Source: Eubacteriaceae bacterium CHKCI004
GTDB lineage: Bacteria > Bacillota > Clostridia > Lachnospirales > Lachnospiraceae
Assembly (NCBI GenBank): GCA_900016875.1
Contig: FCNR01000063.1
Location: 1-64,000, forward strand
DNA: 64,000 bases
Direction of reading: 5' to 3'
Shown here: one piece after another, positions 33,962 through 34,496 of the stretch
Position numbering within the stretch: the stretch's first letter is position 1
Layout of the letters: the number at the start of each line of letters is the position of its first letter
Notes under the pieces: generated by a model
What the model saw: only the letters and a program-made list of their open reading frames with translations
Databases searched by the model: none
What the model was told of the DNA's origin: nothing
Position numbers and translations under genes: made by a program

Positions 33962-34014
33962 AAAACTCCTCCTGATTATAATAAAATAGAATAACAACGA
34001 TATCATATATATAT

Positions 34015-34043
34015 TTTACATATTGCATTTCGGAAAGTATAAT
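34015..34043 (+). promoter_or_regulatory. promoter of the SPG-repeat peptide gene
   Basis: TTTACA (34015-34020), 17 bp, TATAAT (34038-34043), in the divergent region with the LysR gene. Start of transcription about 34050, leaving a 75-nt leader. Confidence 0.65.
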
Positions 34044-34124
34044 ACAGTTGTTTCAAGAAAACAAGGTTTTTGGTTCCTGAAAATTATATAACAGGAAACG
34101 CAAAAAAAGAAAGGGGATTTTATC

Positions 34125-34496
34125 ATGTTGATGAAAAAAATATTTTTAGCATTTGGAATAACTGCAATGACATTTTCTGCATGTCTGGGAAATATGACCA
34201 TGGTACAGGCAGCTTCTTTGAGCGGAACGCAGGGTGAGCCTTCTCAGGCAGAACAAAGAGCGATGTTATCAGAATCTAATTTCTTTTCTCCGGGACGTTT
34301 GGGCCAGGCTGCAACTCTGTATGGAACAGGTGATAAATCAAAAAAGGCAGCCATTTTTTCCCCGGGAAAGTTTGGGATAATCAACTGTAAAGATAAAAAT
34401 ATGTGGAGTGAGAATAAAAATAAAAAAATCACATGGCTTTCTCCAGGACAGTTTGGAGAAAAGGAGTCTTATTTATATTGCTGGAAAGAAAAGTGA
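34125..34496 (+). CDS. secreted peptide precursor with three SPG repeats, family unknown
   Basis: I do not recognise this 123-residue protein. It has a Sec signal peptide (MLMKKIF then a hydrophobic stretch; likely cleavage around residue 29, after MVQA). The mature part carries three copies of an 8-residue motif: FFSPGRLG (53-60), IFSPGKFG (77-84) and WLSPGQFG (104-111), consensus [FIW][FL]SPG[RKQ][LF]G, at 24- and 27-residue spacing. Copies 2 and 3 are each preceded at the same distance by a KK pair (73-74, 100-101), a possible processing site. Two Cys lie near the C terminus. AAGGGG precedes the start. It diverges from a LysR gene and is followed by a hairpin-controlled enolase. A signalling or antimicrobial peptide precursor is one possibility; no function is shown. 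Confidence 0.75.

Follow-up and report, generated by a model that had tools for sequence, protein, structure and literature searches.

AgrD-type precursors are small cyclic-peptide precursors of Firmicutes that come with a conserved ring cysteine and with AgrB, and a LysR-type gene divergent from its target is a textbook arrangement in which the target is usually an enzyme or a transporter. We know of no LysR protein that serves as a peptide receptor, and none was found by title and abstract in the literature searched. Peptide signalling in Anaerobutyricum is, to our knowledge, little studied, and the literature search gave no title on the subject. A close parallel is provided by the multi-pheromone Phr propeptides of the Rap-Phr (RRNPPA) systems, such as Phr3T and Phr105. 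The report on them (PMC11343458) describes pheromone copies that are conserved while the rest is not, together with a conserved start with two lysines, and several mature pheromones that are generated and bind the receptor in the two Phr systems studied. Among atypically large RRNPPA propeptides, 6.7% have more than one copy according to PMC9765709.

The gene analysed here lies in a stretch of 64,000 nucleotides (the window) and is found in four genomes, referred to below as the carriers. The features of the locus, with their basis in brackets, are:

33068..33961, minus strand: divergent LysR-type regulator, 297 aa from the conserved MVILDYYRIF start (Pfam, conserved start)
34015..34043, plus strand: precursor promoter TTTACA-17-TATAAT (conservation in four species)
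34125..34496, plus strand: putatively exported three-motif precursor, 123 aa (ORF, relatives, comparison)
34125..34211, plus strand: putative export signal, with a putative cut after VQA (residue 29) and a lipobox-like FSAC at residue 20 (by eye)
34281..34304, plus strand: motif copy 1, FFSPGRLG, residues 53-60 (pattern search, alignment)
34353..34376, plus strand: motif copy 2, IFSPGKFG, residues 77-84 (pattern search, alignment)
34434..34457, plus strand: motif copy 3, WLSPGQFG, residues 104-111, followed by E (pattern search, alignment)
34497..34521, plus strand: predicted hairpin directly after the precursor stop codon (folding; not called as a terminator)

Like the Phr3T and Phr105 propeptides of PMC11343458, the product would be a small exported precursor with several similar peptides in one chain, in which conservation is confined to these peptides and the start. 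The RRNPPA pattern of conserved mature peptides in a non-conserved remainder is found here, with 20 of 24 motif residues kept and linkers at the level of shuffled sequences. Unlike the Phr propeptides, the SPG precursor adjoins a divergent LysR gene, its copies lie 16-20 residues apart, the final copy is not C-terminal, the motif is unrelated, and no RRNPPA (TPR) receptor gene was found next to it, the neighbours being LysR and enolase. Because of the LysR neighbour, and because PF18768 (RNPP_C; a narrow model that matched 1 of 14 control genomes, below cut-off) has no match in any of the four carrier genomes, we do not class the precursor with the RRNPPA propeptides. It resembles AgrD in being small and from Firmicutes, but has no shared cysteine in the mature part (2, 1, 0, and 0 cysteines in the four carriers), and a scan of eight neighbours showed no AgrB. 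With the textbook LysR pairs it shares a divergent regulator and a common intergenic region in all four carriers, whereas the presumed target here is a three-motif peptide that is probably exported.

The precursor ORF begins with ATG preceded by AAAGGGG; position 33962, quoted as the start in the initial annotation, is at the LysR end of the intergenic region. Whole-gene dN/dS is 0.24-0.36 for the three pairs formed by the window and its near relatives G022 and G009, and the gene is thus coding and under purifying selection. Compared with Pfam and NCBIfam, the product gave matches far under the cut-offs, the best PHROGs match had an E-value of 0.057, and the motif in four spellings had no match in the literature searched, in agreement with the initial statement that no described family carries it. 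The window precursor has five extra residues (CWKEK; 34479-34496) beyond the position of the stop codon in G022 and G009.

The N-terminus is hydrophobic and of export type in all four carriers, a pattern judged by eye that supports the signal peptide proposed at the outset. A putative signal peptidase I end is seen at VQA (after residue 29) in the window and at VEA in G002, while a lipobox-like cysteine is kept in all four carriers (FSAC at residue 20 in the window; FAAC, FAAC, and LASC in the relatives). Lipoprotein-signal models match this region weakly, under cut-off (LPAM_1, E 0.069; NF050142, E 0.017). The signal may be of type I or of a lipoprotein, the latter being possible as judged from these residues, and since a VQA/VEA end and a kept cysteine coexist, the product could be either freed or lipid-anchored. 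Once the signal is removed, a probably unstructured chain of about 94 residues would be exported. The AlphaFold model of the precursor has a low-confidence mean pLDDT of 42, obtained from a three-row alignment, which is weak evidence either way.

The three octapeptides of the window follow the consensus [FIW][FL]SPG[RKQ][LF]G and are set in a polar chain. The initial annotation had placed three copies at residues 53-60, 77-84, and 104-111, and this was confirmed: when the 93 residues from S31 onward were shuffled 400,000 times, one SPG[RKQ][LF]G appeared in 50 of the shuffles, and two or three copies in no case. Within the 4.0 Mb assembly, the pattern TCNCCNGGNMRNYTNGG, which covers TCN serine codons and leaves AGY serine codons outside, occurs three times, each time as one of these copies. 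Copy 1 has R-L and copy 3 has W-L in all four species. K-F is present in copy 2 of all four and also in copy 3 of G002, and the window copy 2 is equally identical to copies 1, 2, and 3 of G002 (6, 6, and 6 of 8). As far as the residues tell, copies 1 and 3 can be recognised by their signatures in the four carriers and copy 2 is not distinct; type-specificity of all three copies was too strong a claim, given the equal 6/8 matches of copy 2, and was dropped. The first copy of G022 reads CPG. The spacing of the copies varies (24 and 27 residues, or 28 and 25), and 4 to 12 residues follow the final one.

The strongest contrast between motifs and linkers comes from the comparison of the window with G002, which is represented by a single contig from an assembly that is 84% complete. 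The motif copies are identical at 7/8, 6/8, and 7/8 positions, hence 20 of 24 residues. The remaining four segments of the mature part were aligned over their full length and each compared with 500 shuffles, of which fractions of 0.84, 0.86, 0.68, and 0.70 score as high or higher. The linkers have therefore turned over while the motifs have stood nearly still. Among the three near relatives, dN/dS is 0.07-0.14 for the motifs, a range that rests on one or two replacements, 0.26-0.54 for the linkers, and 0.20-0.23 for the signal. The three copies are very probably the selected functional units of the product, and the octapeptides would be the most strongly selected parts of the precursor.

A search with the single protein gave matches at E 0.01 or better in 7 of 61 genomes. 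Four are real: the window genome, G022 (Candidatus Anaerobutyricum avicola; 83% identity to the window precursor), G009 (Eubacterium sp. An11; 79%), and G002 (38% over the matched part). The other three (G011, G052, and G044) have no motif in six frames and were dropped. Homologues with the three-copy layout thus exist. Motif clusters were found in 4 of the 24 Anaerobutyricum genomes, the same four carriers, with two of the three G022 copies fitting the pattern. In assembly G014, contigs C140 and C177 break between the channel gene and enolase, the position of the peptide gene in the window; one contig stops inside the channel gene and another four bases before enolase. Since this assembly breaks at the peptide-gene site, the count of 4/24 is a lower bound.

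Outside the genus, a profile of the four carriers was run against 397 genomes of the family (E 0.01), 392 of the order, and 391 of the class (both at E 0.001), and the only copy of the gene it recovered was that of the window; the samples overlap and are each part of a larger group. Four weak matches in these wider samples (G118, G291, G370, and G721, the last being the start of a long frame) had no motif in six frames and were discarded. The family pattern search gave no further motif clusters among the matches listed. Plasmids and phages had no match to the precursor, and the 230 pattern stretches in viral contigs included no relatives by tblastn.

The LysR gene can be read as 33068-34006, or to 33961 from the conserved start, and its product matches HTH_1 (1.6e-19) and LysR_substrate (1.7e-30) in Pfam. 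It is divergent from the precursor gene and adjoins it in all four carriers, as the initial annotation had it for the window. Relatives of this LysR at E 1e-30 or better are present in 7 of the 24 genus genomes: the four carriers and G018, G005, and G003, whose LysR proteins have 43-46% identity and whose fetched flanks contain no such peptide. The LysR of G002 shares 52% identity with those of G018 and G005 but only 46% with that of the window, a kinship that, as far as these identities go, speaks against the simple picture of one dedicated regulator line.

The precursor has its own promoter, as had been claimed: TTTAC[AG]-N16/17-TATAAT is kept in the four intergenic regions, its end lying 81, 81, 81, and 59 bases upstream of the start. 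With 3 such sites in the promoter scan and 2.4 in shuffled sequence, the match itself does not stand out, and the evidence for the promoter is its conservation in four species. A scan for near-perfect T-N11-A dyads gave none in three of the four intergenic regions and one in G022, located downstream of the -10 element.

We tentatively propose that the precursor is transcribed from its own, presumably sigma-A-type promoter, probably under the control of the divergent LysR, and that extracellular proteases probably trim disposable linkers to free SPG-containing peptides, which would act as extracellular ligands, most likely as cell-cell signals. Peptide release with signalling is a possible reading, one that we would put somewhat short of even odds; it is favoured over an uncut chain because the Phr propeptides share the conservation pattern. 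The lack of an identified cutting site and of a PF18768 match, and a last copy that is not C-terminal, speak against release with signalling.

The initial annotation took KK as a likely processing site. The KK at a constant offset (-4,-3) from copies 2 and 3 is real in the window, as it is in G022 and G009. In G002, the corresponding positions are GE and GK, and KK is absent throughout before copy 1 (SE, SE, SE, and YA). Since KK is missing from G002 and from copy 1, dibasic processing is not conserved and the proposed site is not supported. In every carrier, a K or R is found within five positions upstream of copies 2 and 3; for copy 1 the span is eight positions. No conserved cutting site was identified among the four carriers.

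If the octapeptides are released and sensed, they would offer a way to study how butyrate-producing gut bacteria communicate. We consider it quite unlikely that they form a new signalling system of gut Clostridia, with three different SPG octapeptides per precursor and with LysR, not a TPR receptor, sensing a re-imported or relayed signal. A LysR that senses a peptide would, if true, be new and would add a new class of peptide receptor. Signalling aside, the locus defines a protein family that has no name and carries three short motifs.

Selection mainly on short repeated octapeptides would be expected of a string of docking motifs as well as of a cut precursor. Accordingly, the product may instead stay whole as a trivalent ligand, free or lipid-anchored, whose three Pro-Gly turns dock on a cell-surface or secreted partner, the protein serving as adaptor, inhibitor, or coat component; this reading is possible, though less likely than release with signalling. 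All four carriers have three copies, of which the first is the R-L one and the last the W-L one, and this fixed count would also suit an uncut scaffold. The two sets of spacings (24/27 and 28/25 residues) fit this reading, a linear-motif string also permits linker divergence and needs no conserved cutting site, and the lipobox-like cysteine of all four carriers would anchor the protein, not release it. Against the uncut ligand, no partner gene is known: only LysR is both divergent and adjacent in all four carriers, and the MIP channel and TetR genes nearby also co-occur without the peptide.

Release of peptides directed against competitors or the host, antimicrobial or otherwise bioactive, and not at kin, is improbable. 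The patchy, genus-restricted distribution would agree with such a role, as would the aromatic residues of the motif and the basic residue that most copies contain; however, the charge of the mature part is not conserved (+4.8, +0.9, -0.2, and -1.2 in the four carriers), and Pfam recognised no immunity, transporter, or modification gene among the eight neighbours. The initial suggestion of a RiPP likewise found no modifying enzyme among these neighbours, nor in the channel scanned.

That the ORF is a leader acting in cis on the downstream enolase gene is very improbable. The stop codon lies 101 bases before eno in the window, and eno comes directly next in G022 and G009. Against this, the contig of G002, which continues for 333 bases past the precursor stop, has no tblastn match to enolase, the enolase hairpin described below is also present in genomes without the peptide gene, and selection acts on the residues of three dispersed motifs. 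The neighbourhood was thus conserved in part: the initial annotation expected both LysR and eno, of which LysR is present in four of four carriers and eno in three. A neutral orphan whose repeats persist by common descent alone is very improbable, since its occurrence in few species and the CPG of G022 are set against dN/dS below 1 and linkers, not motifs, that are saturated between the window and G002.

A MIP channel and a DhaS-like TetR form a pair at 31452-32962 that recurs in G018, G005, and G019; the best NCBIfam match of the channel is LarD, and this and the DhaS-like assignment of the TetR are both under cut-off. The two genes are near the precursor in all four carriers, in a different order in G002. 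A single module of MIP, TetR, and peptide was rejected, as the TetR-MIP pairs of G018, G005, and G019 occur without the peptide. A BlaI-like repressor and an M56 (BlaR1-like) peptidase form a pair at 36113-37920, between eno and a Bmp lipoprotein gene. This pair was rejected as receptor or protease partner, the Bmp lipoprotein following eno immediately in G022 and G009.

The window genome (G000) has two enolase genes, on C52 and C76, that are 62% identical; in G022, the only enolase found at E 1e-50 is the one next to the peptide gene. The sequence at the site of the 34497-34521 hairpin differs in G022 and G009. Rfam gave seven matches over 31000-37000, all below the gathering scores. In the enolase leader (34538-34594), a long predicted hairpin covers the Shine-Dalgarno/ribosome-binding site and is followed by a T run. 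An alignment of 7 of the 11 leaders listed from the genus has 17 consensus pairs, three of which change on both sides and still pair in at least one sequence; four pairs are broken in G007. By eye, G008, G010, and one G002 copy have a weak hairpin or none, and the one in G005 has a large loop. Since it is present where the peptide gene was not found, it belongs to enolase and not to the peptide, and it may be an attenuator or a translational switch.
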